Shown here: positions 22,097 to 38,070 of the stretch, in pieces
Layout of the letters: each line of letters starts with the position of its first letter
How positions within the stretch are numbered: the first letter of the stretch is position 1
Assembly (NCBI RefSeq): GCF_000828055.2
Contig: NZ_CP010523.2
Span: 3,286,001-3,350,000 of the forward strand
Direction of reading: 5' to 3'
DNA: 64,000 nt
Source of the DNA: Klebsiella variicola
Lineage (GTDB): Bacteria > Pseudomonadota > Gammaproteobacteria > Enterobacterales > Enterobacteriaceae
Notes under the pieces: model-generated
Databases searched by the model: none
Told to the model about the DNA's origin: nothing
What the model saw: the letters and a program-made list of their open reading frames with translations, nothing else
Translations under genes and position numbers: made by a program

Positions 22097-22684
22097 TTAT
22101 TTTAATAACCCCTTCATGATCAAAGACAGACCGAACTCAAAACACGTATCGGGATGCTGGTGGGTAAGCGCATCGATACGACTGATTTCTGTTGAGGGTG
22201 TAGACAATCTTTCATCATCATGTCTGTCTGTACGAGACTGCTCCTCCAATACGCATCCCAGGGTATATTCGCTAATAGTGAGTAATATCATTGCGGCTTC
22301 GGCCTCAGAAAAGCCGGCCCGCATAAGGTAAGCCACCTTTGGGTAGAACGTTTCCCCTCCTACCCGCGCCGGTGTTGTCCCCGCATGGAGCAGTGCGCCA
22401 TCCCGATGAGCGAGAAGCGCGCGGCGGAAACTGCGCGCGTTATTTGCCAGCCAGTCTGCCCACTCGGCCGTGTCTTCAGCCAGCGGAAGCGAATGGTGCC
22501 TGGCCAAAACAGTTGCGGCCATCTCTTCCAGTAAGCTGGCCTTGTTCCTGAAATGCCAGTACAGCGTTGCGGATTCTACCCCCAGCTTTTGCGCCAGCTT
22601 TCGCGTCGTTATCGCTTCCAGCCCAACTTCATCTAAGAGTGCTAATGCAGCATTAATGACCTGATCCCGCTGAATTTTAGCCAT
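22097..22684 (-). CDS. TetR-family repressor (TetR class)
   Basis: 195 aa. The N-terminal HTH (VINAALALLDEVGLEAITTRKLAQKLGVESATLYWHFRNKASLLEEM) is close to true tetracycline repressors. The C-terminal part also follows TetR_C length and pattern (FRRALLAHRDGALLHAGT). The start at 22684 has AGGA eight bases upstream; longer frames lack one. It is divergent from the DHA2 exporter, with tetO-like sites between. Likely represses the exporter and itself. Confidence 0.9.
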   Translation of the reverse strand: MAKIQRDQVINAALALLDEVGLEAITTRKLAQKLGVESATLYWHFRNKASLLEEMAATVLARHHSLPLAEDTAEWADWLANNARSFRRALLAHRDGALLHAGTTPARVGGETFYPKVAYLMRAGFSEAEAAMILLTISEYTLGCVLEEQSRTDRHDDERLSTPSTEISRIDALTHQHPDTCFEFGLSLIMKGLLK

Positions 22685-22743
22685 GGTGTTCATCCTGTTG
22701 TTAATGCATCCAACCGAGCCCGTGGTAGATGAAAAGAGATCTT

Positions 22744-22757
22744 CTCCTGACCAGGAG
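22744..22757. promoter_or_regulatory. Palindrome upstream of TetR gene
   Basis: CTCCTG-AC-CAGGAG is a perfect 6-bp inverted repeat in the leader of the TetR gene. It could be a second type of operator or an RNA hairpin. Confidence 0.3.
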
Positions 22758-22784
22758 CCTACCGGCGCCATTGATGAAAATAAA

Positions 22785-22799
22785 TCTATCACTGATAGA
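22785..22799. promoter_or_regulatory. tetO-like operator 1
   Basis: TCTATCACTGATAGA is a perfect 7+7 palindrome with a central base. The core CTATCA-N-TGATAG is that of classical tet operators. It lies 50 bp upstream of the exporter start. Confidence 0.7.
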
Positions 22800-22803
22800 A
22801 AAA

Positions 22804-22818
22804 TTGATCAATGATAGA
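22804..22818. promoter_or_regulatory. tetO-like operator 2 (imperfect)
   Basis: TTGATCAATGATAGA keeps the right half TGATAGA and four of seven bases of the left half. It is centred 19 bp from operator 1. Tandem operators are usual in tetR-tetA regions. Confidence 0.45.
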
Positions 22819-22849
22819 TTTTTAACGCATCGCACCTAAAGGTCATCCC

Positions 22850-24292
22850 ATGAATATCAATCGAGATACGCAGGCTAAGAAAACAAACCATGCTGATCCC
22901 ATCAATGCCATCCCGCCGGTTTTGTGGATGCAAGCCGCCATCATCAGCCTTGGGGCATTCGCTACCATGCTCTCATCCACCATGCTCAGTGCTGCGCTTC
23001 CGGCCATGGCAAAGGGCCTTGGGGTGACGGACGCCTCCATCCAGTGGATAGCCACCGCGTACCTCATGGCGCTGGCCGCAGGCGTTCCGGTTAGCGCATG
23101 GGCGGTAAAACGGTTTGGCGCCACCCAACTTTGGCTCTATGCACTTATTTTATTTGGTGTTTTCTCGGCAGTTTGCGCGTTATCCCCGAATATCGAGGTG
23201 CTGCTCACCGCCAGAATAATGCAAGGTCTGGCAGGCGGGTTACTCGTGCCGGCCGGGCAGACGATCCTGGGTCTGGTGGTCGGTCGTGAGCGCCTCGGGC
23301 GGATCATTGGTACGATAGGCGTGGCTATCGTCATTGCTCCCTTACTGGGAACGTCTCTGGGGGCCGTGCTGCTTCAGGTCTGCGGATGGCGAGTCTTGTT
23401 TTTTATTAATGTCCCCTTATCTCTCTGTGCCTGGCTTGCGGGATGGAAATTACTCCCTCGCCCGACAATAAAAAATGATAAGCCGCTCTCCCTGGACTGG
23501 ATGGGGTTAATACTGATTCTTTGTAGCCTTCCCCTGCTCATGGAGGGTATTAAAGGCGTCAGCCTGAATAGTGGTGAAAATAGCGGGAACATTATCTTAC
23601 TCAGCGTGGGCGCACTGTTTATCGGCTTGTTTATCTTTCGCTCTTTTCGCATTGACTCGCCTTTACTTCATCTCAGCCTTTTCAAACATCGTGGCTTCAC
23701 ATTATCGGCGTTGCTGATGGCTATCGGAGGTGCGGTGAATTTTGGTGGACAGTTCCTGCTCCCGTTGTATTTCCGCGACGTTTGCCATGAAGCACTGGCT
23801 GATGTGGGTTTGCTCCTTACCCCGCAGTTAATCGGTTCTGCCATAGGATTCCCGGTCGCCGGTTATTTCTCAGACCGGCTGGGTCCTCGCGTGGTGCTGA
23901 TCGTTGGCGGCTTGATCTCGGTGTTAGCGACATGGCCGCTGGCCATGATTGATGGAGGCAGTAGCTACCTCCTGGTCGGTAGCGCACTCGCTATCAGAGG
24001 GTTCGGTTTAGCCCTTGCGACAGTGCCGGCGATGGCGGCAGGCCTGGCGATGGCGGGTACCCGTCATGTTTCTGATGCAGCACCGATTCTCAACATCCTG
24101 CAGCGTGTTGGCGCGATGGCTGGCGCGGCCCTGGTGACGGCGTGCTACGTCAGACTGGCGCATACGCAGGGTAGCTTAGCCGCCTTTCAGCACGCCGGGT
24201 GGATACTGATCAGCGGCGCCATACTGCTCACCCTTTCAGCACTTTTCATGGTGAACCATCAGGGATCATCAACGCGGGAAGAAACAAGATAA
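22850..24292 (+). CDS. MFS drug exporter, DHA2 (14-TM) type
   Basis: 480 aa with about 14 hydrophobic segments, EmrB/QacA-like. TM1 region AAIISLGAFATMLSSTMLSAALPAMAKGLG and the motif-C-like stretch VIAPLLGTSLGAVLL mark an antiporter of the DHA2 group. AAAGG precedes the ATG. Divergent from a TetR-class repressor over tetO-like sites. It is not TetA (12 TM), so it combines a TetR-type switch with another pump family. Substrate unknown. Confidence 0.9.
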   Translation: MNINRDTQAKKTNHADPINAIPPVLWMQAAIISLGAFATMLSSTMLSAALPAMAKGLGVTDASIQWIATAYLMALAAGVPVSAWAVKRFGATQLWLYALILFGVFSAVCALSPNIEVLLTARIMQGLAGGLLVPAGQTILGLVVGRERLGRIIGTIGVAIVIAPLLGTSLGAVLLQVCGWRVLFFINVPLSLCAWLAGWKLLPRPTIKNDKPLSLDWMGLILILCSLPLLMEGIKGVSLNSGENSGNIILLSVGALFIGLFIFRSFRIDSPLLHLSLFKHRGFTLSALLMAIGGAVNFGGQFLLPLYFRDVCHEALADVGLLLTPQLIGSAIGFPVAGYFSDRLGPRVVLIVGGLISVLATWPLAMIDGGSSYLLVGSALAIRGFGLALATVPAMAAGLAMAGTRHVSDAAPILNILQRVGAMAGAALVTACYVRLAHTQGSLAAFQHAGWILISGAILLTLSALFMVNHQGSSTREETR

Positions 24293-24414: not shown

Positions 24415-25200
24415 CTAAACCGAACCAATCAATCCGCCATCGACCCGGATCACCGCCCCGGTAATGTAACTGGCAGGCTGGCTTGCCAAAAAGGCAGCGG
24501 TAGCGCCGTACTCATGGGGGTGGCCATAACGTCCCGCCGGAATGCTCAGACGACTCTTCTCCGCGACCGCTTCCGCAGTGGAATGTTCCCGTTTCGCCTT
24601 GATAGCATCCAGCTGACCCACCCGGTCGGTAGCAATGCGCCCAGGCACCATCACATTCACCGTGACGCCGTCGGCCGCCACTTCAGCGGCAAGGGTTTTC
24701 GACCAGCCGAGTAAGCTCATGCGCAGCGCATTCGACAGGGCGAGACCGGGAATAGGGGCAATCACACCGGACGAGGTGGAGGTAATAATGCGTCCCCAGC
24801 CACGGCTGCGCATGGCGGGCAGTAGTTTATCGGTGAGCTGGATTAACGAGGCGACCATCACTGAAAATTGCTGTTGCCAGACGGCGCCGTCCGTCCCCTG
24901 TGCCAGCGTGGGCGGTGGGCCACCGGAATTATTGACCAGAATATCGATGTCGCCCCAGTGCTCGCGGATATCGGCGATGACCGTATCAAACTGTTCCGGG
25001 ACGGCAAAATCCAGCGGCCAGGCGCGGGCGGTACCGCCCAGCTGAGTGATGCGTTCCACCGTTTGCGCCAGCTTCTCTCTGTTGCGGCCTGTCACGGCGA
25101 CCTTCACGCCTTCCTGCGCCAGCGAGCAGGCGATAGCCTGTCCAAGACCACTTCCCGCACCGCAAACCAGTGCCACACGCTGTTGTATCTGCAAATTCAT
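24415..25200 (-). CDS. SDR-family protein lacking the catalytic Tyr/Lys pair
   Basis: 261 aa. The SDR fold is clear: C-G-A-G-S-G-L-G at residues 13-20, NNSGGPP at 90-96, TSTSSG at 140-145 and VDGGLIGSV at the end. At the Y-x-x-x-K position the sequence is L153-A-L-S-N157, so both catalytic residues appear to be missing. It may be a non-classical SDR or a non-catalytic one. The start at 25200 has AGGAG upstream, buried in a 10-bp hairpin. It lies 51 bp after the GntR gene on the same strand. Confidence 0.82.
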   Translation of the reverse strand: MNLQIQQRVALVCGAGSGLGQAIACSLAQEGVKVAVTGRNREKLAQTVERITQLGGTARAWPLDFAVPEQFDTVIADIREHWGDIDILVNNSGGPPPTLAQGTDGAVWQQQFSVMVASLIQLTDKLLPAMRSRGWGRIITSTSSGVIAPIPGLALSNALRMSLLGWSKTLAAEVAADGVTVNVMVPGRIATDRVGQLDAIKAKREHSTAEAVAEKSRLSIPAGRYGHPHEYGATAAFLASQPASYITGAVIRVDGGLIGSV

Positions 25201-25201
25201 A

Positions 25202-25231
25202 AATGCTCCTGATTGTATTTTCAGGAGCATT
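25202..25231 (-). promoter_or_regulatory. Hairpin enclosing the SDR ribosome-binding site
   Basis: On the minus strand AATGCTCCTG and CAGGAGCATT form a perfect 10-bp stem with a 10-nt loop. The AGGAG for the SDR start (25200) is in the 3' arm. The loop carries ATACAAT, the complement of ATTGTAT, the end motif of the shared elements at 26288 and 34131. It could be a translation block, a protein operator, or both. Confidence 0.55.
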
Positions 25232-25251
25232 ATGTGCAATAGTGATGCCAG

Positions 25252-26148
25252 TTATACGCGTGGGCTTTTTACATTGACCTGGTCAAACGCGTATTGCAGG
25301 TGTTTTCTCATCAACTCTGCCGCCTGTTCCTGTTTGTTCTCTCGCAGGGCATCAATGATGGCAACGTGCTCTTCGCACCACTCTTTTACGCGACGCTTAT
25401 TGTGATAGCTACCAAATTCCAGCAGGCGGCGCAGCCGGTTTTGCTGCTGAATAGCCTGTAATACAAACAGGTTGCCGCTGGCCTCTGCCAGCAACTCATG
25501 AAACGCCGCATCGGTTTCGAAAATCTCTTTGGCCGGGACCTGCGTAATGTCCGGGTGGGTGATGAGTCTCAGATGCCGGGCGCGCAGACGTTTAAGCATC
25601 TGCCGGTCAACATGCAGGTTGGGCGTCAGCAACGCCATCGGTTCAATCATCAGGCGAAAACCGTAGCTATTGCGCAGAGCGATATCGGAGTTCAGGGTTT
25701 GCAGAAAGCGCCAGCCATGCCCTGCATTGCGGGCAATCAGGCCATCCTCCGATAGCTTCACCAGTGTACGGGTCAGCACGCCGCGATCAACATCATAGCG
25801 CTGGCTGATTTCGGTCTGGGTAAAGGATTCCGGCAGGATACCTGCAATGCGGTCATGGACCAGTTGCTCGTACAACTTCTGGTCATTGCTCTTGGACTGC
25901 TCAATCTCCAGCTGATCCAGCTCATTACTGCGTTTAAGGAGGAAAAAACCCTGGTTTGGCCGCGCTTCAACCGCCCCCATTCGGGTCAGTTCCTTGAGCC
26001 CGGCACGTACCGGCGTACGCGAAACACCCAACGCATCGGCAAGATGTTGCTCACGTAAATGATGACCTGGATCGAATCTTGCTTCAGATATCAGGTCGAG
26101 TATTTGCCGGGCTATCCGGCGACTGCTCGCAGTGGAGTCAGGCTGCAT
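25252..26148 (-). CDS. GntR-family regulator with two winged helices and FCD domain
   Basis: 298 aa, longer than the usual 220-250. Residues about 10-72 are a GntR winged helix (LREQHLADALGVSRTPVRAGLKELTRMGAVEARPNQGFFL). Residues about 92-150 look like a second one (FTQTEISQRYDVDRGVLTRTLVKLSEDGLIARNAGHGWRF). The FCD effector domain follows (DAAFHELLAEASGN; WCEEHVAIIDALRENKQEQAAELMRKHL). It is divergent from the importer operon at 26341 and upstream of the SDR gene. Probably the regulator of the whole 24.4-35.4 kb locus. Confidence 0.9.
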   Translation of the reverse strand: MQPDSTASSRRIARQILDLISEARFDPGHHLREQHLADALGVSRTPVRAGLKELTRMGAVEARPNQGFFLLKRSNELDQLEIEQSKSNDQKLYEQLVHDRIAGILPESFTQTEISQRYDVDRGVLTRTLVKLSEDGLIARNAGHGWRFLQTLNSDIALRNSYGFRLMIEPMALLTPNLHVDRQMLKRLRARHLRLITHPDITQVPAKEIFETDAAFHELLAEASGNLFVLQAIQQQNRLRRLLEFGSYHNKRRVKEWCEEHVAIIDALRENKQEQAAELMRKHLQYAFDQVNVKSPRV

Positions 26149-26287
26149 GAATTCACGATTCCCTGAAGTGCATTGTTGTGGTCGATATATACAATATCAC
26201 GAGCAACAAAACGCAGCAAAGTAAAGCAAGGAGTGCACGCTTAACGTGCAATACGCACCAGAATGAGACGTTTTTTTCACACGCATA

Positions 26288-26315
26288 ATTGTATTTATTG
26301 ACTCACTAAATTCAA
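26288..26315. promoter_or_regulatory. Shared 28-bp element, importer promoter
   Basis: Begins ATTGTATT, has TGACTCA at the centre and ends TTCAA. It matches the element at 34131 at 23 of 28 positions. It lies 25 bp upstream of the binding-protein start. Another ATACAAT is at 26189-26195 in the same gap. Confidence 0.6.
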
Positions 26316-26340
26316 TTTAAACCTTAGCCAGGAGACGACT

Positions 26341-27153
26341 ATGTCCAGCAATTCTTTTCTGTTTCGCCATGTGCGTACTTTGATGTTCGCGCTGACCGCC
26401 CTGCCGCTGGTCAGCCATGCGGCGGTGGAAACCATCGCCAAGGGTCAACTGACCTATGGAACGGCAGCGACGTTCATGCCTTTTGAATACGTGAAAGCAG
26501 GCAAGCTTACCGGCTTCGATATCGACCTGATCAACGCGCTAAGCAAAGAGATCCAACTGACGCCAGCGCCAATGCCGATGGAATTCAAAGGGCTTATTCC
26601 GGCGCTGCAGGGTAAACGTCTGGATATCATCAACTCCGCCATGTACGTCAATCCGACCCGTGCCGAGCAGGTTGACTTCGTACCCTATCTGAAAATCGGC
26701 AGCCGCGTGGTGGTCCGCAAAGGTAACCCGGCCAACATCACCGGACGTGACCTGAGCCTCTGCGGCAAAAACATCGCCGTGACGCTCGGCGGGATCGAAG
26801 AGAGCCAGGCGCGGGCAGACAATCAGCGCTGCGTGGAGGCCCAAAAACCGGCCATCAACGTCATGACGTTCCCCGCCGCCACCGATTCCGCCGTGGCCGT
26901 CGCCCAGGGACGTGCCGATGCCGAGTTCCTCTCCACGCCGGGCACCGTCGCCCTGTTTACCGAAAAAGCCGGCATGTTCGAAGCGGTTGGCGCCGAGTTC
27001 GAAGCGAATACTCACATCGCCTTTGCCGTGCGTAAAGGCGATACCGCAACCCAGGCCCTGCTGGAGCAAGGTCTGCAGAGCCTCGTCAAAAATGGCACCT
27101 ACACGCAACTGATTAAGAAGTGGAACTTCCCAGACTCCGTTGCCCTTTTCTAA
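26341..27153 (+). CDS. Periplasmic amino-acid binding protein
   Basis: 270 aa SBP_bac_3 protein with a signal peptide (about 1-28, ending VSHAA). Core motifs are YGTAATFMPFEYV and GFDIDLINALS; Arg in PTRAEQVDF is the expected carboxylate anchor. An extra Cys pair (LSLCGKNIAV; NQRCVEAQ) may form a disulphide. First gene of the plus-strand importer-catabolic run. The ligand is probably an amino acid or a close derivative. Confidence 0.92.
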   Translation: MSSNSFLFRHVRTLMFALTALPLVSHAAVETIAKGQLTYGTAATFMPFEYVKAGKLTGFDIDLINALSKEIQLTPAPMPMEFKGLIPALQGKRLDIINSAMYVNPTRAEQVDFVPYLKIGSRVVVRKGNPANITGRDLSLCGKNIAVTLGGIEESQARADNQRCVEAQKPAINVMTFPAATDSAVAVAQGRADAEFLSTPGTVALFTEKAGMFEAVGAEFEANTHIAFAVRKGDTATQALLEQGLQSLVKNGTYTQLIKKWNFPDSVALF

Positions 27154-27180
27154 CCCGTTTGCCATTAACCGGAGAACGCT

Positions 27181-27906
27181 ATGTCGATCGATTTAATGTG
27201 GCAGTACTTCCTCTCCCCCGAATTTATTCGGGGTGCGTGGATGACGCTACTGATTACCCTCTGCTCACTGTTGTGTGGCGTGGTGCTGGGCCTGGTGTTG
27301 GCGCTGTTGCAGGAAGCGCCGTTTCGCGCCGGGAAAGGGCTGGCCTTTTTCTACCTGTGGCTGTTTCGCGGGACGCCGGTGCTGTTCCAGATAATCTTTG
27401 TCTACAACGTGCTGCCAGGCTTCGGCTTACGCTTCTCCGCGTTTACCTGTGCAGTGCTGGCCCTTTCGCTCAATGAAGGCGCCTACATGGCGGAAATTCT
27501 GCGCTCTGGCCTGCAGGCGGTGAAAAGCGGCCAGCGCACCGCCGGCATGGCGCTGGGGATGACTCACGGCCAGATCATGCGAAAAATCGTTCTGCCTCAG
27601 GCCGCACGCATCGTTCTGCCGCCGATGGGTAACCAGATGATCAGCATGCTGAAATCGAGCGCGCTGGTCTCGGTTATCGCCGTTCAGGAACTGCTGCTGG
27701 TCGCTAACCAGGCCGCCAGCGCCAGCTTCCGTTACTTCGAAGCGCTTTGCGCTGCGGGCATCTATTACCTGCTGCTCACCAGCCTGTTCATGATCTTCCA
27801 GTCGTGGCTGGAACGCGTGCTGGATCCCAGGCAGCGCCGCAGCAAAAGCCAGAAGCGGCTGACTCGCCTGTTTAAATTACCGAAAACCGTCCGGGAGGAA
27901 CCATGA
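27181..27906 (+). CDS. Polar amino-acid ABC transporter, permease
   Basis: 241 aa with about five membrane segments and the EAA-type loop (GMALGMTHGQIMRKIVLPQAARIVLPPMGNQ). HisM/GlnP family. It overlaps the ATPase start by 4 bp. The basic C-terminal tail (RQRRSKSQKRLTRLFK) is longer than in the permease at 3172. Confidence 0.93.
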   Translation: MSIDLMWQYFLSPEFIRGAWMTLLITLCSLLCGVVLGLVLALLQEAPFRAGKGLAFFYLWLFRGTPVLFQIIFVYNVLPGFGLRFSAFTCAVLALSLNEGAYMAEILRSGLQAVKSGQRTAGMALGMTHGQIMRKIVLPQAARIVLPPMGNQMISMLKSSALVSVIAVQELLLVANQAASASFRYFEALCAAGIYYLLLTSLFMIFQSWLERVLDPRQRRSKSQKRLTRLFKLPKTVREEP

Positions 27907-28643
27907 GTGAGAAACCGCTGCTGGAGATGATCGGCATTGATAAGACTTTTGGTCGCCAGACCGTACTCAAAAACTGCTCTCTGACCGTGCAACGCGGAGA
28001 AACCGTGGTGCTGATTGGCCCGTCCGGCTCGGGAAAATCCACCCTGCTACGCTGCGTCAACATGCTCTCGCCCGCCGACAGCGGCGATGTGTTCTTCGCC
28101 AGCCAGCACATCAGCCGGGGCGATGTGCCGGCGCACAAACTGCGTCAGCGCATTGGCATGGTGTTCCAGAACTACGAGCTGTTCTCGCACCTGACCGCAG
28201 CGGAAAACATCATGCTGGCCCCGATGACGGTGTTGGGAATGAACCGTATTGATGCCCGCAAACTGGCGGACAACCTGCTGGCAAAAGTGCGCATCAACGA
28301 ACGTGCAGACCATTTTCCGGACGAGCTCTCCGGCGGACAGCAGCAGCGCGTGGCGATTGCCCGGGCGCTGGCGATGAAGCCCGAGCTGATGCTCTACGAC
28401 GAGCCCACTTCCGCCCTCGACCCGGAGATGATCCGTGAAGTGCTGGAAGTCATGGCGGAGCTTAGCGCAGAAGGCATGACCAGCATGGTGGTGACTCACG
28501 AAATGGGCTTCGCCCGTCGGGCCGCTAACAAGATTCTGTTTATGGAAGACGGCGAAATTATCGATCGCGCCAACACCAGCGATTTCTTCGCCGGCCATGT
28601 CAGCGACCGCGCGCAGCGCTTCCTGACGCAAATATTACATTAA
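27903..28643 (+). CDS. Polar amino-acid ABC transporter, ATPase
   Basis: 246 aa. Walker [10 protein letters not shown], signature LSGGQQQR, Walker [14 protein letters not shown]-loop VTHE. GlnQ family. Overlaps the permease and precedes the M20 gene by 13 bp, so importer and enzymes form one transcription unit. Confidence 0.95.
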   Translation: MSEKPLLEMIGIDKTFGRQTVLKNCSLTVQRGETVVLIGPSGSGKSTLLRCVNMLSPADSGDVFFASQHISRGDVPAHKLRQRIGMVFQNYELFSHLTAAENIMLAPMTVLGMNRIDARKLADNLLAKVRINERADHFPDELSGGQQQRVAIARALAMKPELMLYDEPTSALDPEMIREVLEVMAELSAEGMTSMVVTHEMGFARRAANKILFMEDGEIIDRANTSDFFAGHVSDRAQRFLTQILH

Positions 28644-28656
28644 TCACGGAGTTCCT

Positions 28657-29832
28657 ATGTCCAGTTATCAGGTTGACAGCGCTCGTATGAAAAAGGACTT
28701 AGCGACGCTGGTTGCCATCAACACGGAGAATCCACCGGGCCATGAGCGCGAAGCCGCCGAATGTCTGGAAGGCTGGCTGCTGACCGCCGGGTTCGATCTC
28801 TCCTTTAGCGAATACGCACCGGGGCGGACCAACGTTATCGCCGTCCTGAACAATGGACCGGGGCCGTGTTTCGCCTTTAACACCCACCTTGACACCGTTC
28901 CGGCGGGCAGCGGCTGGGCCAGCGATCCCTTCACGCTCACCGAGCGTGACGGACGCCTGTATGGACGCGGCGCCTGCGATGCCAAAGGCCCGCTGGTGGC
29001 GATGGTTGAAGCCCTGCGTCTGCTGGCTGCCAACCGTCAGCAGTGGTCCGGCACATTGATGGGGGTGTTCACCGCCGATGAAGAGGTCGCCAGCGAAGGG
29101 GCGAAATTCTACGTCCGCGATAATCCACCGGCGATTGATTTCGCGGTGATTGGCGAGCCGACCTCGAATGCCACCTTCTCCGCCCACAAAGGCAGCTTAC
29201 GTCCTCGCGTGCGGGTTAAAGGCGTCACCGCGCATTCCGGTACGCCGGAGCTGGGGGTTAACGCGATTTACCAGTCAGCGCGCCTGTTAGGGTTGATTGA
29301 AGAAGCCCACCACCAGCAGGTGCGTTGCCGCTGCCACGATCTGGTCGGCAACGCCAGCCTGACGGTAACCCGCATCCACGGCGGCCATGCGGACAACGTG
29401 GTGCCAGACAGCTGTGAGCTGCTGCTTGACCGTCGCATGGTTCCGGGCGAAGACGAAGAGGTCGTCAAAGCCGAACTGCAGCAACTGCTCGACCACGCAT
29501 ACGCACATGCAGGTGTGGAAGCCGAAATTATCGCCTGGCAGCCCACTACCGGCGGCGCGACGCAAACCGACAGCCGCGAAGCCATTGTCGAGCAAAGCCT
29601 TGCTGCCTGTCGCCGTCATGGGCAGAGCGAACCCGGCCCGTTTGGTTTTCAGGGGGGATGTGACCTGGTGCATTTCCGTTCGCTGGGCGCAAAAGGCGTC
29701 GTGATTGGCCCCGGTTCGCTGGCCGTGGCTCACAAACCCGATGAATTTGTCCCTGTCGATGAATTTATCGCCGCGGCCTACCTCTATCTCGATATTGCGC
29801 TCGCCATGCTGCCGCCGGAGCCCGGTTTATGA
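28657..29832 (+). CDS. M20-family metallohydrolase (ArgE/DapE-like)
   Basis: 391 aa. Metal ligands of the family are all visible: His77 and Asp79 (NTHLD), Asp108 (GACDAKG), Glu142/Glu143 (ADEEV), Glu167 (GEPT) and His359 (VAHKPDE). The lid domain begins near residue 180. Members remove N-acyl or N-succinyl groups from amino acids or cut dipeptides. Cytosolic. The stop overlaps the next start by 4 bp. Substrate unknown, but deacylation or ring-opened amide hydrolysis fits the locus. Confidence 0.9.
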   Translation: MSSYQVDSARMKKDLATLVAINTENPPGHEREAAECLEGWLLTAGFDLSFSEYAPGRTNVIAVLNNGPGPCFAFNTHLDTVPAGSGWASDPFTLTERDGRLYGRGACDAKGPLVAMVEALRLLAANRQQWSGTLMGVFTADEEVASEGAKFYVRDNPPAIDFAVIGEPTSNATFSAHKGSLRPRVRVKGVTAHSGTPELGVNAIYQSARLLGLIEEAHHQQVRCRCHDLVGNASLTVTRIHGGHADNVVPDSCELLLDRRMVPGEDEEVVKAELQQLLDHAYAHAGVEAEIIAWQPTTGGATQTDSREAIVEQSLAACRRHGQSEPGPFGFQGGCDLVHFRSLGAKGVVIGPGSLAVAHKPDEFVPVDEFIAAAYLYLDIALAMLPPEPGL

Positions 29833-30929
29833 AAGCACAGCTCTTTCGGGGAGATCTGCATTACGCCGGTGTGACGCTGCATACCGCTGCCTCTGGTCCG
29901 GTAACGGCGCTCGATACGCTCTGGCTGCGTCTGGAAGACCAGGGAGTGATCGGGATTGGCGAAGTGCGGCTCAACATTCGCTACCTGCATGGCTACCGCG
30001 AAGAGCAGGTGCTGAACAACCTGCTTCAGATACTTCATCGCTGGGACTGGCGCCAGGCGCCCGCCGCGCGACTCGCCGCGTTAGATGGTGAAGACTGCAC
30101 GCTCCTGCCGCCATCGCGCATGGTGCTGGATATGGCCTTGCACGACCTGCTGGCGCGTCAGCAAGGGGTAAGCGTTGCCGCCTGGCTGGGGGCGCGGGAT
30201 GGCCTGCCTGCGTGGCACACCAACCAGACCCTGTTCTGGGGCAGCGAGAGACAGATGCTGGAGCAGGCGCAACGCTATGTCGATCGCGGTTTCACCCAGC
30301 TGAAGTTGCGCACAGGCGTGGCGGATTTCGCTATCGACCTGGCCCGTCTGCAACGGCTGCGCCAGCGGTTCGGTCAGCAGATTTCGCTGGCGATTGACGT
30401 GAACGGCCAGTGGTCTCTGGCGCAGGCTCACGCGGCATTCCCGTCTCTGCGCGAGCTGAAGCTCAGCTACATCGAACAGCCGTTAAGCCCGGCAAACGAC
30501 AGCCAGCTTGCGGAGCTGTACGCCTACGGCATCCCGATCATGCTCGACGAAAGCCTCAACAGTGATGCCGCCATCACCCGGCTGATCGCCGCCAAAGGTG
30601 CGCTGTGGGGGCATCTCAAACTGGTGAAACTGGGTGGCCTTGCGCCGACGCTGGCCGCCGCCAACCGGCTGCGACTCGCCGACGTGCCATTCATGATTGG
30701 CCAGATGAATGAAGGCCATGCTGCCACCGCCGCCGCGCTCCAGCTGTGTCGTGTCGTGCAACCGGCATTTGCCGAGCTGTATGGCGCCGATGGCTTAACG
30801 GATGATCCCGTCAGCGGGCTGGAATACCGCAATGGCCTGGTCACCGTCAATGACTCACCCGGTCTGGGCGTGCAGTTTAATGCCGCGCAGGCCCACTTAC
30901 TCCAGGAGTTTACTCATGCAAGATGTTAA
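29829..30929 (+). CDS. Enolase-superfamily enzyme (mandelate racemase/MLE type)
   Basis: 366 aa. Residues expected for the family: K159-L-R161 on strand 2, where K-x-K is usual; metal ligands Asp190 (AIDVNG), Glu216 (YIEQPL) and Asp240 (LDES); and Lys264 (HLKLVKLGG) on strand 6. Retaining the strand-6 Lys points to the MLE subgroup (epimerases, racemases, cycloisomerases). Replacement of the second strand-2 Lys by Arg suggests altered chemistry. Genes on both sides overlap it. An amino-acid or dipeptide epimerase role is plausible but unproven. Confidence 0.85.
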   Translation: MKAQLFRGDLHYAGVTLHTAASGPVTALDTLWLRLEDQGVIGIGEVRLNIRYLHGYREEQVLNNLLQILHRWDWRQAPAARLAALDGEDCTLLPPSRMVLDMALHDLLARQQGVSVAAWLGARDGLPAWHTNQTLFWGSERQMLEQAQRYVDRGFTQLKLRTGVADFAIDLARLQRLRQRFGQQISLAIDVNGQWSLAQAHAAFPSLRELKLSYIEQPLSPANDSQLAELYAYGIPIMLDESLNSDAAITRLIAAKGALWGHLKLVKLGGLAPTLAAANRLRLADVPFMIGQMNEGHAATAAALQLCRVVQPAFAELYGADGLTDDPVSGLEYRNGLVTVNDSPGLGVQFNAAQAHLLQEFTHARC

Positions 30930-32085
30930 CAATGTGATTCAGGGCAGTGAGTCCGCCTTTAGCGCTGATGAATATGCGCAACGCATTCGACGCACCCGCG
31001 AACGCTTAAGCCGCGCGGGCGTGGACGTCATGATCGTTACCGGCCCGGAAAACATTTTCTGGCTCACCGGGCAGCAAACACCGGGCTATTACACCTTCCA
31101 GGCGCTGTTGCTGCCGGTAGAAGGGGATCCGGTGTTTGTGATTCGCCAGCTCGAATACTTTAACTTTATCGCCAACACCTTTATTTCTGACGCCGCCATC
31201 TACCAGGATGGCGATAACCCGGTGGATTTCCTGGTGGGCATGCTGCAACAGCGCGACTGGCTCCACAAACGGATTGGACTGGACAAGCGCGGCTGGTTCC
31301 TGCCGGTTGCCGTCTATGAAGCCCTGCAGGCCAGGCTCGGCACCATTGCCGATACCGCGGGCGTCATCGAGCCGCTGCGCGCCGTGAAATCGGCGGCGGA
31401 GGTGGAAAAAATCGCCATCGCAGCGCGCTATGTAGACGCGGGCATGCGCGCGGGCATGGCGGCGATTCACCGCGGCGCAGACGAAAACGCGCTGGTCGCG
31501 GCGATGATGGGGGCCGCCATTGCCGCCGGTTCCGAATATGTCGGCATGGAACCGCTGGTCTCGACCGGCCCACGCAGCGGCGTGCCGCATGGGACATGGC
31601 GTCGTCGGGTGATGCAGGATAACGACCCGGTATTTCTCGAAATGTCAGCGGCTCACGACCGCTACCACGCCGCGATGATGCGCTCCGCCTGGCTGGGGCG
31701 GCCGCCCGCTATCGCCATCGAAATGGAAAAAGTGTGTCAGGAAGCCCTGCAGGCCTCCCTTGATGCCATTCGTCCAGGCGCCACCTGCGAAGCGCCGCAC
31801 CTGGCCTGCCAGAAGGTGATTGATCGCGCCGGGTTCACCGAAAACTTCAAAAAACGCACCGGTTACTCCATCGGTATCGCCTTTGCGCCGGACTGGGGCG
31901 AAGGCGGCATTCTCAGTCTGTATCGTGGCGTCACCACTGAGCTGCAGCCAGGAATGACCTTCCACATTCCACCGGCTCTGCGGATCTACGGTCAATTTAC
32001 CGTCGGCGTCAGTGAAACCGTGGTGGTGACCGAAACCGGATATCGTCAGCTGGGTTCCCTGGCTCGCCCTCTCACACTGCTGTAA
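30916..32085 (+). CDS. M24-family creatinase/ectoine-hydrolase-like protein
   Basis: 389 aa with the creatinase N-domain and a pita-bread C-domain. The metal ligands of aminopeptidase-type M24 proteins are not conserved: the usual D-x-G-x-x-x-x-G-Y-x-S-D region reads LEMSAAHDRYHAAMMRS. This matches the metal-free creatinase and DoeA/EutD ectoine hydrolase pattern, as does IAFAPDWGEGG with PGMTFHIPP and SETVVVTETG near the end. So ring or C-N amidine hydrolysis is more likely than peptidase action. The ATG at 30916 (AGGAG upstream) overlaps the enolase-family gene by 14 bp. Confidence 0.85.
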   Translation: MQDVNNVIQGSESAFSADEYAQRIRRTRERLSRAGVDVMIVTGPENIFWLTGQQTPGYYTFQALLLPVEGDPVFVIRQLEYFNFIANTFISDAAIYQDGDNPVDFLVGMLQQRDWLHKRIGLDKRGWFLPVAVYEALQARLGTIADTAGVIEPLRAVKSAAEVEKIAIAARYVDAGMRAGMAAIHRGADENALVAAMMGAAIAAGSEYVGMEPLVSTGPRSGVPHGTWRRRVMQDNDPVFLEMSAAHDRYHAAMMRSAWLGRPPAIAIEMEKVCQEALQASLDAIRPGATCEAPHLACQKVIDRAGFTENFKKRTGYSIGIAFAPDWGEGGILSLYRGVTTELQPGMTFHIPPALRIYGQFTVGVSETVVVTETGYRQLGSLARPLTLL

Positions 32086-32095
32086 GGAAAGAAAA

Positions 32096-33019
32096 ATGAA
32101 AGATATCAATGAATGCCGTGAACGCCTGCGCGGTATTTTCAACATCACCGTTACCCCGTTCACCGCCAGCGGGGCGATCGACTTTCCGGCGTTACGTGAA
32201 AATATTGAACGCGTGATTGGTCTGGGTTATGACGGTCTGCTGATTGGCGGCACCTACGGTGAATTCCCGGTGATGACCGTCGAAGAACGCCGTGAGCTGT
32301 TTCATCAAGTCATGGCCTGTGTGGATGACCGCGTGGCGGTCATGCTGTGCAGCGCCAGCGCCGACCCGCGCGATGCCCGTGAGCTGACGCTGCTGGCAAG
32401 CGAGCTGGGCGGCCTGCCGATGGTGACCGCGCCCTTTGTCAGCGAAATCACTGACCAACAGATCGTCAGCTACTTCAAAGAGATGGCTCCCTTATCCAAG
32501 ACCGGCATCCTGGTGTACAACGCGCCGGGCATCGGCATCACCCTCTCCCCGGCGCTGCTCGAACAACTGGCAGAGATCCCCAACGTGGTCGGCATCAAAC
32601 AGGGCGATCTCACCCCCACCGCCATCGACCAGATTGCTAACCGCCTGCGTGGGCGTCTGCGCCTGTTCTGTGCATCCGATCTGGCCTTCCTCGGGCCAAT
32701 GATGGCCGGGTTTGACGGCATCAGCACCACCAACAGCGGCGCGCTGCCGGAGCTAATTATCAATACCTTCCGGGCCGTGGAACGGGGCGATGCCGCCACG
32801 GCCCGCGATCTGCATCAGCTGTGGTACGCGTATCGCGCGCTGGCGCGCAAACATGGTCAGCCGCAGCTGGTGAAAGCGGCGATGGCGCTGCGCGGTTTTA
32901 ACGGCGGCACCGTACGCGCACCGTTAAAACCGATCGACGACGCGGCGCTGGCGGAGCTGACTCACGTCATGTCGGCGCTTGCCAGCGACAGCCGTAGCGG
33001 CGTTACGCTTGCGCGTTAA
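32096..33019 (+). CDS. DapA-family lyase (dihydrodipicolinate synthase-like)
   Basis: 307 aa TIM barrel. Class I aldolase features: GGTYGEF at 51-57 (the GTTGE-type loop), Tyr141 in VYNAPG and the Schiff-base Lys168 in VVGIKQG. In catabolic loci, family members make or cleave 2-keto acids, often giving pyruvate plus an aldehyde. It is the last gene of the plus run; its 3' end overlaps the convergent amidotransferase gene by 17 bp. True DapA function is unlikely here because of context. Confidence 0.88.
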   Translation: MKDINECRERLRGIFNITVTPFTASGAIDFPALRENIERVIGLGYDGLLIGGTYGEFPVMTVEERRELFHQVMACVDDRVAVMLCSASADPRDARELTLLASELGGLPMVTAPFVSEITDQQIVSYFKEMAPLSKTGILVYNAPGIGITLSPALLEQLAEIPNVVGIKQGDLTPTAIDQIANRLRGRLRLFCASDLAFLGPMMAGFDGISTTNSGALPELIINTFRAVERGDAATARDLHQLWYAYRALARKHGQPQLVKAAMALRGFNGGTVRAPLKPIDDAALAELTHVMSALASDSRSGVTLAR

Positions 33020-34100
33020 GCGCCGCCCGTAAAAAGGCGACGAACAGCGGATGGGGCGCATCCGGGCGGGACATCAGTTCCGGGTGCCCCTGCACACCAT
33101 GCCAGAACGGCAGTTCCGGCTGGGAGATGGCCTCCACGATATCGTCCGTTTGCGCACTGACGCTGACCCCGCTGCGATCCAGCGCTGGCAATAAGTCGGT
33201 GTTAAAGCAGTAGCGATGGTTGTAGTGCATTTCGCGGATATCACCGGGGATCAACCCGAAGGAAAAAGGGAATACGCCGCAGCGATGACGACCATCGACA
33301 AAGGGAACAAAGCTGTGCAGAGCCTCATCCGGAGCCACTTCGGCGGGAATGGCTGATTCGCAACCCGGACGTCGGCGCACGACTGCGGTCATCATGCTCT
33401 GCATTCCCAGGCATAACCCCAGCGTGGGCTGTCCGCGGGCAAGCGTATCTTCCGCCACGCGGATTTGTCCCTTGACGGCGGCCATCGAGGAACCGCCTGG
33501 CAACACGACGCCCTGGACGTCGTGGAGGTCGTGTAACCCAGGGGACAGACTGACCGGCGCGAAGAAATGGACCTCCAGGTTCAGCCCCAGCGACGCCGCG
33601 GCATCACCCAGTGAGCCAAGCGTGGCGGGGTAGACCAGACGGTGGTCTGACTCACGGCCAATCAGTGCGATGCGCAAGGGCGTCCCGGCAGAGGATGGCT
33701 CCCCGGCATCCCAGCGACCATAGCGATCGGCGGTGAGGTCTAACACCGTATGTTGCCCGTCGCTGAGCGTCAGGCGCTGGTTGCGGTCATCGCTGAACAG
33801 CCGTTGGCCCGGCAGGTCGGCGATAAGCGCTGCCTGCGAGGACGCCAGCACAATGACAGCATCTGACTCAGGCAGGCTGGCGATATCGCGCACCTCTTCA
33901 CGCAGCGTATCGCTGCGCCAGAGGCCGCTGGTCACGCAGTACCCGGCACGAATGACGTGCTGATGGCTGTCGGGAACATCGCCGGCGAAGTCGGGGCGAA
34001 GGCTCCAGAGAGGCAGTCCAAGACGATTAGCCCACAGGCTGGCGGTAATACCGTAGCGAGCGGGCGCAGAGGTGTTATCGAGAATAAAGATCGGTGACAC
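33003..34100 (-). CDS. Free-standing CTP-synthase-type glutamine amidotransferase
   Basis: 365 aa. The C-terminal half (from about 142) matches the GATase domain of CTP synthase: VLPGGSSMAAVKGQIRVAEDTLARG, nucleophile Cys230 in LGLCLGMQ, MHYNHRYCFN, and His339/Glu341 in VQGHPELMSRPDAPHPLFVAFLRAA. The triad is intact. The CTP synthetase ATPase domain is missing; the first 140 residues are unrelated to it and unrecognised. It may be a glutaminase or amide hydrolase. Divergent from the aminotransferase at 34169 over the shared 28-bp element. Confidence 0.82.
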   Translation of the reverse strand: MSPIFILDNTSAPARYGITASLWANRLGLPLWSLRPDFAGDVPDSHQHVIRAGYCVTSGLWRSDTLREEVRDIASLPESDAVIVLASSQAALIADLPGQRLFSDDRNQRLTLSDGQHTVLDLTADRYGRWDAGEPSSAGTPLRIALIGRESDHRLVYPATLGSLGDAAASLGLNLEVHFFAPVSLSPGLHDLHDVQGVVLPGGSSMAAVKGQIRVAEDTLARGQPTLGLCLGMQSMMTAVVRRRPGCESAIPAEVAPDEALHSFVPFVDGRHRCGVFPFSFGLIPGDIREMHYNHRYCFNTDLLPALDRSGVSVSAQTDDIVEAISQPELPFWHGVQGHPELMSRPDAPHPLFVAFLRAALNAQA

Positions 34101-34130
34101 GGCGAGTTTCCTGCTGAGGTTGGGGACCTA

Positions 34131-34158
34131 ATTGTATTAATTGAATCATTAGATACAA
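34131..34158. promoter_or_regulatory. Shared 28-bp dyad element, amidotransferase/aminotransferase promoter
   Basis: TTGTAT (34132-34137) and ATACAA (34153-34158) are inverted around TGAATCA; 10 of 13 half-site positions are symmetric. The element matches 26288-26315 at 23 of 28 bases. It sits in the 68-bp gap between divergent genes. Confidence 0.65.
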
Positions 34159-34168
34159 AAGAGGATTT

Positions 34169-35377
34169 ATGAATAACAGTCAAATCGCCCGTCGTATGCA
34201 ATCTGTACGCCCTTCACCGACAGCGGTCATTTCTGACCAGGTACGGGCACTGGAAGCCGCAGGCAAGCCGGTTATCAACCTGGGCGAAGGAGAACTGGAT
34301 TTTGCTACCCCGGCCCATATCAGCTATGCGGGCATTGAAGCGATCGTGCATCATCAGACTAAGTATACCGCCGTTTCCGGCACCGCCGCGTTAAAGGAGG
34401 CCATTGCCGCCAAGTTCGCTCGCGACAATCAGTTGCATTACCGTCCGCAAGAGATCATCGCAGGCAGTGGCGCCAAGCAGCTTATTTTCAATGCTTTTCT
34501 GGCCACCCTCGACGCCGGGCAGCAGGTCATCATTCCCGCCCCCTACTGGGTCTCGTATCCGGATATGGTCTCTCTGGCCGATGGCGAACCGGTGATTGTG
34601 CCCTGTGATGAACAAAACGGCTGGAAGCTGACGCCGGAACAACTGGCCGCCGCCCTCACCCCATCAACGCGCTGGCTGATCCTCAACTCGCCGGGCAACC
34701 CGACGGGGGCGATTTACAGCGAGCAGGAACTGCGTGCCCTGGCTACGGTGCTGGCGGATTACCCACAGGTGCTGGTGATGGCCGACGATATTTACGAGCC
34801 GCTGCGCTATGACAATATCCCTTTTACCACTTTTGCCCAGGCCGCCCCGCAGATGGTTTCACGTACCCTGACGGTAAACGGTGTGTCCAAAAGCCACGCC
34901 ATGACCGGCTGGCGTCTGGGCTATGCGGGAGGGCCGCAATGGCTGATTGCCGCCATGCAGATCCTGCAATCACAAAGCACCTCCAACCCCAGCAGTATTT
35001 CGCAGGCTGCGGCGGTCGCAGCGCTTAACCACTCAGCCAATTTCTTCGACGGCTGGCTCAACGTGTTAGATAAACGCCGCCAGCAGGTGCTGGGAATGAT
35101 TGCCGCCACCGATGGCCTGAGCGCCACCGCTCCCCAGGGGGCATTCTATGTGTTTGCTAACTGCCAGGCGCTCATGGGCCGGATGACCCCTGGCGGCGAA
35201 ATCCTTCGCAACGACAGCGCGCTGGCGAACTGGCTATTAGAACAAACCCAGGTGGCCGTTTTACACGGCTCCGCGTTTGGAATGCCGGGGTATTTGCGTA
35301 TTGCGTATGCGATAGAAGATGGCCTGCTAACCCAAGCCTGCCAGCGGATAGCGGGCGCCTGCGCGCAATTGCGTTAA
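34169..35377 (+). CDS. Class I PLP-dependent aminotransferase (AspC-like)
   Basis: 402 aa, full length. Asn177 in NSPGNPTG, Asp206/Asp207 with Tyr209 in ADDIYEP, Schiff-base Lys241 in GVSKSHAMTGWRLGY and Arg249 are in place. The N-terminal segment with GEGELDF resembles bacterial aspartate/aromatic aminotransferases of the subgroup Ib type. AGAGG lies before the ATG. It would turn the locus's amino-acid product into a 2-keto acid that the DapA-like enzyme could cleave; this order is inference. Confidence 0.9.
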   Translation: MNNSQIARRMQSVRPSPTAVISDQVRALEAAGKPVINLGEGELDFATPAHISYAGIEAIVHHQTKYTAVSGTAALKEAIAAKFARDNQLHYRPQEIIAGSGAKQLIFNAFLATLDAGQQVIIPAPYWVSYPDMVSLADGEPVIVPCDEQNGWKLTPEQLAAALTPSTRWLILNSPGNPTGAIYSEQELRALATVLADYPQVLVMADDIYEPLRYDNIPFTTFAQAAPQMVSRTLTVNGVSKSHAMTGWRLGYAGGPQWLIAAMQILQSQSTSNPSSISQAAAVAALNHSANFFDGWLNVLDKRRQQVLGMIAATDGLSATAPQGAFYVFANCQALMGRMTPGGEILRNDSALANWLLEQTQVAVLHGSAFGMPGYLRIAYAIEDGLLTQACQRIAGACAQLR

Positions 35378-35745: not shown

Positions 35746-36351
35746 GTGATTAAGGTTGAAATATTGAAAACGGCCAATTTTTCTGAGTTGATAAAAATAG
35801 CTGCGCTACAACTGTTCAGAGAAAAAGGGTTTAGCAATGTCTCAACCCGTGATTTGACGCAGAAAATGAATATTTCCAGAAGTCATATCTATCACTATTA
35901 TCGAGACTGGGAAACGCTCAAGAAATCCACTATTCAGTATATGTTTGAAAATGACATACAAGAATGTCATGCGTTTTTAAACGCGTCAGAAAAAATGAGC
36001 GCTAGTGAAAGAGTAAACCTCTATATCAGAACGCTGTTACCCGATGCACCTTCGGCACACTGGCTGCTCTACCTTGAACTATGGCCAATGGCAGCACGCG
36101 ATGCGGATTATGCTAAATTAGTGCACGATCACTCCCTGCAATGGATCACTATTCTTGAAGGCATCATTAGCGTAGGGATGCAGGAAGGCGAGTTCCTTGC
36201 GGAAAACGCCGCTACCTCAGCCAGACAAATAAACACATTAATTGATGGGTATTCCAGCTTGCTGATCCTCGATTATTCAGAAGACAGACGCAGCATTTTT
36301 CTTAATGAAATATCTGAGCTTGCCTTTAAAATACTTAAAAAAGATTTCTGA
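35746..36351 (+). CDS. TetR-family regulator
   Basis: 201 aa. The HTH is FREKGFSNVSTRDLTQKMNISRSHIYHYYRDWETLKKST; the C-terminal part resembles the BetI-like TetR_C group (YLELWPMAARDADYAKLVHDH). The start is a GTG. AT-rich codon use unlike the genes to the left suggests recent acquisition. It is followed by a convergent secreted-protein gene; its target is unclear. Confidence 0.85.
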   Translation: MIKVEILKTANFSELIKIAALQLFREKGFSNVSTRDLTQKMNISRSHIYHYYRDWETLKKSTIQYMFENDIQECHAFLNASEKMSASERVNLYIRTLLPDAPSAHWLLYLELWPMAARDADYAKLVHDHSLQWITILEGIISVGMQEGEFLAENAATSARQINTLIDGYSSLLILDYSEDRRSIFLNEISELAFKILKKDF

Positions 36352-36377
36352 GTGGGTGAAGCAAGGTAGCGTATCAG

Positions 36378-37154
36378 TTAACCCTTTTTTATATTGAGAT
36401 AACTTAAAATACGCTGCATTTTACTTTCTGCCGTCGTATTCCCTGGCGCAGCGCTGTCTATCCAGGTCTCATCGGCTTCAGGATGCGGACCTGACAGGAT
36501 GATGTTTCCCTTACCATACCGGTACTTACCAATGGCGATATCTCCATTCTTGTAGTAAGCGATCGGCTGGAATCCAGTACTTGAGATACTACTGTTGAGA
36601 TAAGGCCCATCCTGGTAGTAAAAAGGCTCTTGTTTATTATTCCATGTCAGTTGCAGGGTATAATCGCCTTCATCAACGGCCTGCGAACCGGGTCTCCCCA
36701 CCTCTGATTCTAAAGGCGCATCAATAAGCCCTATCCAGTCTTTGTCGGCAAGATAGGCTCCCATACAAAGACCAAGAAAGGATTTGCCACTTTTCACAAA
36801 ATTGCGGATAGCCTCTGCCCCTTCATCACCCAGGGCTTGATAAGAGCCGGGTATATCCTGACCGCCGCCAGGTTGAATATAGAGATCGAATTTTTTCAGT
36901 GTTTGCGCATTTAATTTCAGCTTTTCTTTTTCGCCAACATAAGAGATGTGCAGAGGCAGGCCTGTCGCGACCAGCGATTTTACCACCATTTCAGAACAGC
37001 CTGGGCACCCGGCCTCCCCGCGATAAACAGCGACATTATAACTCTCTGATTGCGAGGGCTTTGCCAGCACCGATGCGGTGAAAAAGGCGAAAGAAAAGGC
37101 AACCGTTAGTATTTTTGCTTTTTTAAGTCTGGTGCCCTGGAAAAAAATTTTCAT
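36378..37154 (-). CDS. Secreted BPL_N (GATase-1-like) domain protein
   Basis: 258 aa. Signal peptide about 1-31 (FSFAFFTASVLA). The mature part is the biotin-protein-ligase N-terminal-like domain: VAVYRGEAGCPGCSEM, LYIQPGGGQDIPG, Cys in FLGLCMGAYLA and a closing LSGPHPEADETW. The fold is that of class I amidotransferases with a nucleophile-elbow Cys. Periplasmic location is unusual for such enzymes. Function unknown; it lies in the AT-rich block. Confidence 0.75.
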   Translation of the reverse strand: MKIFFQGTRLKKAKILTVAFSFAFFTASVLAKPSQSESYNVAVYRGEAGCPGCSEMVVKSLVATGLPLHISYVGEKEKLKLNAQTLKKFDLYIQPGGGQDIPGSYQALGDEGAEAIRNFVKSGKSFLGLCMGAYLADKDWIGLIDAPLESEVGRPGSQAVDEGDYTLQLTWNNKQEPFYYQDGPYLNSSISSTGFQPIAYYKNGDIAIGKYRYGKGNIILSGPHPEADETWIDSAAPGNTTAESKMQRILSYLNIKKG

Positions 37155-37648
37155 GTCAGTAGATCCCCTGGTTATGTAGTGTCATGGTTAATCACAGCGT
37201 ATCACTTTTGGATCCCGCAGATGATGACAATAAATTAGAGCGATTGCTCAAATTTATCCTCAACATCAAATTTGTCAAGCCGTTTTAGTTAAAATAAATA
37301 ATATTTATTTATTCTGTAAGGTAAAGGCGACAATATTTTATAAATATCTTTTAATGAGATATTCTCATATCTTATTGCCTTCTCAATAACATTAAATACC
37401 GAAGAGAGGGTGAAAAAAGAGTCGATCATGCTCCATGTAATACAGCGGTCGTCTTACCGGGCAAACGTCAACATTGGCGTACTGGTCGCGCTACACAGCG
37501 ATGGCAGTTCAGCAACAACACCACATGGCATGTTTTACATAAATCATCATTATATTCATGCAGTTATAAAAACAACGTCACGTGCGCCTTGATCCATCAG
37601 CACATTCAATAATACTGTATATAAAAACAGTATTCGAGGATCGATACC
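37155..37648. other. AT-rich gap upstream of umuDC
   Basis: Very AT-rich. It holds the promoters for the BPL_N gene and umuDC and the LexA box at 37615. A 60-codon GTG frame (37410-37592) has a GAGAGG upstream but no pattern I recognise; I leave it uncalled. Confidence 0.5.
37615..37630. promoter_or_regulatory. LexA (SOS) box of umuDC
   Basis: CTGTATATAAAAACAG fits CTG-N10-CAG with an A/T core, 18 bp upstream of the umuD start. A strong SOS box by inspection. Confidence 0.9.
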
Positions 37649-38068
37649 ATGCAGTTTACTCGGCCAACTGAGATTTCGCCCCCACTCATGCTCCCCCTCT
37701 TCTCCGAGAGGGTGCCCTGCGGATTTCCCAGCCCCGCTCAGGATTATGTTGAGGACAGGCTGGATCTCAATAAATTATTGATAAAACATCCGAGTGCTAC
37801 CTACTTCATCAAAGTCAGCGGAGAGTCTATGCGTGATGCCGGCATCAGTGATGGAGACCTTTTAGTGGTTGACCGCTCACTGTCTGCCGTACATGGTGAT
37901 ATCGTCATTGCGGCTATCGCAGGTGAATTCACCGTGAAAGAACTTCGCACTCATCCTTTTTTACAGCTAGTGCCCCACAATCGCGATTACGCTTCCATTT
38001 CGTTTCATAATGCCGAAGAGTTAGAAATATTTGGCGTGGTCATTTTTAGCATTAAAGCGCATAAATAA
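37649..38068 (+). CDS. umuD: UmuD, DNA polymerase V subunit
   Basis: 139 aa, the length of E. coli UmuD. Cleavage site Cys24-Gly25 (PCGFPSP), nucleophile Ser60 (SGESM) and general base Lys97 (FTVKEL) sit at the same positions as in E. coli. RecA-driven self-cleavage yields UmuD', which joins UmuC for translesion synthesis. LexA box directly upstream; two bases separate it from umuC. AT-richer than most of the window. Confidence 0.95.
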
Positions 38069-38070
38069 TT

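Follow-up and report, generated by a model that had tools for sequence, protein, structure and literature searches.

What compound might Klebsiella variicola take up and break down with the eleven-gene block at 24415–35377 of a 64,000-nucleotide stretch of contig NZ_CP010523.2 (hereafter, the window)? The block codes for an SDR oxidoreductase, a GntR regulator, a three-gene ABC importer and enzymes of the M20, ENOL, M24, DAPA, GATase and AAT types. A first-pass annotation of this DNA proposed the import and breakdown of an amino-acid derivative, which is well supported by the importer, the operator shared by the transcription units, the catabolic enzyme families and the patchy distribution of the accessory genes. 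Sequence and comparison establish a predicted importer of the polar-amino-acid type and M20-ENOL-M24 as a fixed core of enzymes. With confidence that we regard as evenly balanced, we propose that the block is a horizontally spread, dedicated catabolic regulon for an N-substituted (cyclic amidine/lactam or N-acylated) alpha-amino acid, which the bacteria perhaps encounter on plants. Every gene family named in the annotation is present at its place and each protein scores above the curated cut-off of a Pfam model. The features of the block are as follows:

24415–25200, − strand: SDR oxidoreductase (PF13561/PF00106); start shifted from the end of the open reading frame (ORF) at 25239
25252–26148, − strand: GntR/FCD regulator with two tandem winged helices (~7–70 and 88–148) plus FCD (Pfam, AlphaFold2 model, hhalign)
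26289–26315, + strand: operator 1, a 27-bp near-palindrome 25 bp ahead of the start of the importer operon (sequence comparison)
26341–27153, + strand: periplasmic binding protein, SBP_bac_3 (PF00497)
27181–27906, + strand: ABC permease of the polar-amino-acid type (PF00528, TIGR01726)
27903–28643, + strand: GlnQ-like ABC ATPase (PF00005; NF007027 299.8 bits, below the cut-off of 379)
28657–29832, + strand: M20, an ArgE/DapE-family deacylase (TIGR01910 242.4 bits, above the cut-off of 217.6)
29829–30929, + strand: ENOL, enolase superfamily, muconate-lactonizing-enzyme (MLE) subgroup (PF13378, alignments; K159-x-R161, K264)
30916–32085, + strand: M24, with an ectoine-hydrolase-like active-site region (phmmer to DoeA 6twj/6twk; ORF open from 30802)
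32096–33019, + strand: DAPA, a DapA-family Schiff-base lyase with a GGTYGE motif and K168 (PF00701)
33003–34100, − strand: GATase, a CTP-synthase-like amidotransferase without P-loop, triad C230/H339/E341 (domain models, alignments, fold model)
34132–34158, + strand: operator 2, between GATase and AAT, 10 bp ahead of the AAT start (sequence comparison)
34169–35377, + strand: AAT, a PRK06107-like class I aminotransferase (PF00155; NF004769 525.2 bits, below the cut-off of 617)

Gene order, operator and spread of the block

A scan of the genome collection with the M24 ORF returned 88 relatives, 80 of which were kept; after two at 41% identity were dropped, 78 loci remained (M24 identity of at least 60%). 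Close M24 relatives were the seed of this sample, and the presence counts per gene rest on identity limits that we set. The permease, ATPase, M20, ENOL and M24 genes follow each other in identical order and strand in 75 of the 78 loci, which range from Klebsiella to Pseudomonas, Paraburkholderia and rhizobia (three classes). Conservation of the neighborhood beyond its own genome, the check asked for in the first-pass annotation, extends to the order of a five-gene core. The other genes are present in 77 (GntR), 75 (binding protein), 68 (GATase), 59 (AAT), 51 (DAPA) and 43 (SDR) loci.

The 27-bp near-palindrome has just two sites in the 5.52-Mb genome, and no further site was found at up to three mismatches. 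Matches to at least 15 of 21 operator positions precede the binding-protein gene in 42 of 75 loci (versus 0.5% of shuffles) and AAT in 36 of 59 (versus 0.9% of shuffles). None of the 78 loci has an operator-like match ahead of M20 or ahead of M24. A private operator at both transcription units joins them, as established by sequence comparison, into one predicted regulon. Together, the core order and the shared operator rule out a chance neighborhood. We also identified an odd architecture in the regulator. The helix-turn-helix (HTH) and FCD domains were both matched in 45 of 45 regulators, and the protein has an extra, second winged helix (AlphaFold2 model; hhalign aligns one HTH segment with the other at a probability of 92). 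No protein spanning both winged helices and FCD was among the 50 matches listed for the GntR model, and a literature search on GntR proteins with two winged helices found none.

The cluster is accessory within the genus, with M24 in 3 of 20 genomes (own genome counted). Its closest relatives are in Klebsiella michiganensis and K. grimontii, with M24 96% identical. A TetR/MFS gene pair (window 22097–24292) flanks the cluster in two Klebsiella relatives too, at 70–81% versus 88–97% for the cluster. Among 398 genomes sampled across the phylum, 16 had M24 matches (E of 1e-60 or better) and, apart from the own genome, every match was at most 38% identical. Megablast gave no match in E. coli. The cluster is plasmid-borne in Pantoea and in Agrobacterium fabrum C58 (At plasmid). 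A quick tree of the core (58 rows, with the close Phytobacter locus L023 left out) nests the three Klebsiella rows in its Erwinia/Pantoea part and puts Acinetobacter rathckeae beside a Pantoea plasmid. This placement suggests horizontal transfer of the cluster.

Several genes overlap, as the first-pass annotation had noticed: permease and ATPase (27903–27906), M20 and ENOL (29829–29832) and ENOL and M24 (30916–30929) on the same strand, and DAPA and GATase convergently (33003–33019). The annotated M24 relative of Pantoea sp. At-9b is 1170 bp long and shares 14 bp with ENOL, which supports 30916–32085 as M24 and makes the ORF from 30802 overlong. The SDR ORF begins at TTG; its relative in Pantoea has 786 bp and, therefore, 24415–25200 is the likely extent of the gene.

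Importer and core enzymes

The binding protein retains R107 in 78 of 78 sequences and, in the alignment, has Ser198 (76 of 78) at the position of the Asp in the LHDTP motif of GlnH. We take the Arg107 position to bind the carboxylate of the ligand and the GlnH Asp to hold its alpha-ammonium group. Retention of the carboxylate Arg with replacement of the Asp by Ser suggests a cyclic or N-acylated amino acid as ligand. In the route that we propose, the binding protein would take up the compound via its carboxylate and the ectoine-hydrolase-like M24 would open the ring through attack by E280. M20 would then strip the acyl group, like EutE after EutD in ectoine breakdown, and ENOL would act at the alpha-carbon in a one-base reaction (isomerization or elimination rather than two-base racemization). 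The product of the core could be a glutamate- or aspartate-like amino acid. We infer both the reaction order and the substrate class.

M20 has H77, D79, E142, E143, E167 and H359 in 81 of 81 sequences. ENOL resembles the N-acylamino-acid racemase/dipeptide epimerase branch in its MLE-type domain, its metal ligands (D190, E216 and D240) and K264, all invariant in 73 of 73 sequences. It differs from this branch in the second strand, where K159-x-R161 replaces the KxK motif in 73 of 73. Racemases of the MLE subgroup presumably use two catalytic lysines, one from the KxK motif and one from the sixth strand. The KxR motif makes a two-base racemase less likely and casts doubt on the epimerization step of the first-pass annotation. 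It also counts against a rival explanation, the scavenging of N-acyl (e.g., N-malonyl or N-acetyl) D-amino acids, in which ENOL would racemize the N-acyl-D form, M20 would deacylate the L form and M24 would be a peptidase-like helper. The best solved relative of ENOL is 2p88 (100 bits), which we take to be an N-succinyl-amino-acid racemase, and its second NCBIfam model is the N-acetyl-D-Glu racemase DgcA (101.2 bits). The deacylase score of M20 and the D-amino-acid transaminase of eight rhizobial loci are also consistent with such scavenging. However, ENOL misses the DgcA cut-off of 400, the eleven genes include no acyltransferase, and the ectoine-hydrolase-like M24, the protein used to find the loci, would go unexplained. 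We consider this alternative rather unlikely.

M24 matches the ectoine hydrolase DoeA (6twj/6twk) with E ~1e-52 over 373 residues (phmmer) and shares with it the surroundings of the catalytic Glu and the motifs PHxTW, RYHA, GYxIG, PDWGE and PGMTFH. Residues E280, H263, R287, H289, R294, D364, W365, H388 and E405 are invariant (71 of 71). In the alignment, E280 falls on the Glu of EutD that we take to be catalytic (residue 255 of the chain, by counting). Measured against the M24-family consensus, most metal ligands are missing from the protein. The first-pass proposal of a cyclic or N-acylated compound that is opened and deacylated is, thus, supported at the level of active sites, by M24 and by the absence of the alpha-ammonium Asp from the binding protein. 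A further point in its favor is the presence in Rhizobium jaguaris of an M24 (39% identical) and an M20 (33%) protein encoded near ectB and ehuB.

In ectoine catabolism, the ectoine hydrolase opens the ring to yield N-acetyl-diaminobutyrate, which EutE deacetylates (PMC8739950 and PMC5924519). This system (EutD/DoeA, EutE/DoeB and Ehu) shares with the locus an M24-fold hydrolase in which active-site region and catalytic Glu are the same, the logic of hydrolase, deacylase and aminotransferase, and a polar-amino-acid ABC importer. The locus differs in having M20 in place of EutE and GntR/FCD in place of the MocR-type EnuR, and in adding ENOL, DAPA, GATase and SDR. Catabolism of ectoine or 5-hydroxyectoine in an altered form would be consistent with the DoeA match, with the scores of the importer subunits on Ehu models, and with a dehydratase in Burkholderiaceae nearest to threo-3-hydroxyaspartate ammonia-lyase, which would suit a hydroxylated product. 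Yet M24 falls below the ectoine-hydrolase cut-offs (218.9 of 613 for TIGR02993 and 289.6 of 575 for NF038259), as do the subunits on every importer model (EhuB, 67.7 of 190.9 bits; EhuC, 149.9 of 196.95; EhuD, 158.7 of 205.2; EhuA, 246.7 of 345.4), and the cluster has no DoeC or DoeD types. EutE (TIGR02994) was unmatched in the whole genome, in a search with a weak control (1 of 14 control genomes matched, none over the cut-off). The missed DoeA and Ehu cut-offs and the unmatched EutE led us to reject membership in an ectoine cluster, and we regard ectoine as a very improbable substrate. The predicted regulon is nearest in logic to ectoine catabolism, yet its proteins fall outside the ectoine models.

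Equally improbable is an opine catabolism that is no longer confined to crown-gall bacteria. The At plasmid location in C58, an importer of the opine-type family and the nature of opines as N-substituted amino acids all point to it, but opine-oxidase types are not among the eleven genes and the organisms with M24 relatives are, by name, mostly not gall formers. The lack of opine oxidase subunits in this set led us to reject membership in opine catabolism. The biosynthesis or modification of an amino-acid antimetabolite via DapA-, DapE- and aminotransferase-like steps, three families that recall lysine biosynthesis, is hardly credible against an importer with a binding protein, no exporter within the regulon, GntR/FCD control and core-only versions of the locus.

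Variable accessory enzymes and sister loci

For the catabolic regulon that we favor, the steps after the core would be exchangeable and differ between lineages. In the present lineage, GATase would remove a gamma-amide, AAT would transaminate the product, DAPA would cleave or dehydrate the 2-oxo acid and SDR would handle what is formed. DAPA has the Schiff-base Lys and the Tyr of the DapA/N-acetylneuraminate lyase superfamily, with K168, Y141 and TYGE in 56 of 56 sequences (the first G of GGTYGE in 55 of 56), and scores below the curated cut-off for DapA proper (118.7 of 206.15).

GATase resembles PyrG and the gamma-glutamyl hydrolases PuuD/SpuA in its class I glutaminase domain, with the catalytic triad and the glutamine-site residues E254 and R296 in 59 of 59 sequences. 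These two residues correspond to the glutamine-site residues Glu403 and Arg470 of CTP synthase. The first-pass annotation had described a stand-alone glutaminase domain of the CTP synthase type; the domain is there, in a two-domain protein of 365 amino acids. Its fold model superposes on CTP synthase over 1–365, with an N-terminal part that models as a shortened synthetase domain of about half length; hhalign of this part to PyrG gave a probability of just 0.3. The alignment rows shown for three relatives have no counterpart of the P-loop Lys18 of PyrG. We rejected membership in the CTP synthases because the P-loop is absent and the PyrG cut-off is missed (79.1 of 462.75). The genome has its own PyrG. 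The window contains a second, shorter ORF (44551–45318, − strand) similar to CTP-synthase glutaminases, with 114.8 bits to PyrG and the catalytic region GTCGGFQ. In locus L050, a PIN-domain gene (Pfam; 12562–12981) lies between DAPA and GATase, and ORFs of the same family occupy this place in L046, L048 and L055, all Rahnella.

DAPA, AAT, SDR and GATase occur together in 41 of the 78 loci, which include the majority of those from enterobacteria. Eight loci of the Rhizobium group (C58 and seven of the 78) instead carry a VOC protein, a D-amino-acid transaminase and a GhrA-like 2-hydroxyacid dehydrogenase that scores 193.6 bits against a cut-off of 403. The transaminase of C58 scores above a family cut-off. 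Seven loci of the Paraburkholderia/Caballeronia/Burkholderia type have a dehydratase that shares 78–100% identity with the one in L052; for the L052 protein, threo-3-hydroxyaspartate ammonia-lyase is the best-scoring model (299.7 bits, cut-off 452). Six of the seven also have the GhrA-like reductase and five the VOC protein. Several Bradyrhizobium loci are the core alone. Transamination and cleavage to pyruvate plus an aldehyde, as first proposed, is not an obligatory end of the pathway.

We also identified six sister loci (L104, L106, L108–L111) with M24 proteins 48–55% identical. All six combine M24 with 5-oxoprolinase subunits and a VOC protein; by annotation, five have a carbamoylase-type M20 and four a D-amino-acid transaminase and a dehydrogenase. 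The 5-oxoprolinase near the sister M24 hints at glutamate-type intermediates in these loci. The VOC protein is more than 80% identical between C58 and L104, L106 and L108. The sister locus of Salipiger adds AAT (58%) and SDR (46%). Its 5-oxoprolinase subunits passed the PxpA and PxpB models, and its PxpC-like subunit scores below the cut-off of the 5-oxoprolinase equivalog (228.7 of 500). A link to N-carbamoyl-glutamate hydrolase was weakened because the Salipiger protein passes just the general hydantoinase/carbamoylase cut-off (247.8 of 204); ErtE is third among the models listed for it (274.8 of 520).

We considered 4-hydroxyglutamate, cleaved to pyruvate and glyoxylate, as an end product. 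The end of the mammalian hydroxyproline route uses an aspartate aminotransferase, the DapA-like HOGA1 and a glyoxylate reductase. The locus has comparable enzymes in its aminotransferase, its DapA-family lyase and the GhrA-like reductase present in some lineages; unlike in that route, HOGA1 is not the structure nearest to DAPA (78.8 bits versus 107.9 for the best). 4-Hydroxyglutamate would suit GATase, the sister 5-oxoprolinase and the GhrA-like reductase, whereas the hydroxyaspartate-type dehydratase of the Burkholderiaceae versions better suits a 3-hydroxy acid.

Several findings weigh against the regulon as we propose it. GATase is weakly conserved (32–40% identity in distant loci). None of five core-bearing Bradyrhizobium genomes had a DAPA match at E 1e-60 (in a search without a positive control) or a GATase match at E 1e-25 (two other genomes matched), so these steps look dispensable; AAT relatives in the same genomes are just 44–52% identical and located elsewhere. 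The importers of the sister loci are not close (binding protein 28% identical) and two sister dehydrogenases compared with the C58 reductase gave no match at 1e-10, which suggests that substrate and end steps may differ in these loci. The DapA-like protein of Salipiger is just 29% identical to DAPA. Lastly, the M24 of R. jaguaris misses the ectoine-hydrolase cut-offs (344.2 of 575 and 218.3 of 613), making it an ectoine precedent by location only.

Genomic surroundings and significance

Local G+C falls to 0.464 at window 36001–40000, beside UmuD- and UmuC-like genes (37649–39333) and a BPL_N-domain protein (36378–37154), exported-looking by eye. These features suggest that foreign DNA adjoins the regulon.

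The absence of a described pathway with this gene set, asserted in the first-pass annotation, agrees with literature searches aimed at the cluster, which gave no description; nor is the cluster described in the available portions of PMC13188858, PMC8739950, PMC5924519, PMC10745273, PMC3333776 and PMC10410297. The strict conservation of gene order, active sites and operator over three classes, together with the plasmid copies, suggests steady selection for the use of one compound. Three proteins of the locus are odd: the regulator carries two winged helices, the CTP-synthase-like amidase lacks a P-loop and the enolase-type enzyme has KxR in place of KxK. Annotations of relatives as ‘Xaa-Pro peptidase’ and ‘CTP synthase’ are misleading. 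The locus also offers tools: its binding protein could be screened for ligands and its private promoter could drive a reporter.

A bolder extension, which we advance tentatively as possible, is a widespread catabolic pathway among Proteobacteria, often plant-associated ones, for a plant-made cyclic amidine or lactam amino acid. M24 would have a new ring-opening specificity, ENOL would catalyze a single-lysine reaction new to the superfamily, GATase would be a CTP synthase turned amidase on loss of its ATP site, and a two-headed GntR would act on the 27-bp operator. If true, bacterial turnover of the substrate, a compound abundant in plants, would have been overlooked. Naming this compound would explain a part of bacterial nutrition, probably on plants.

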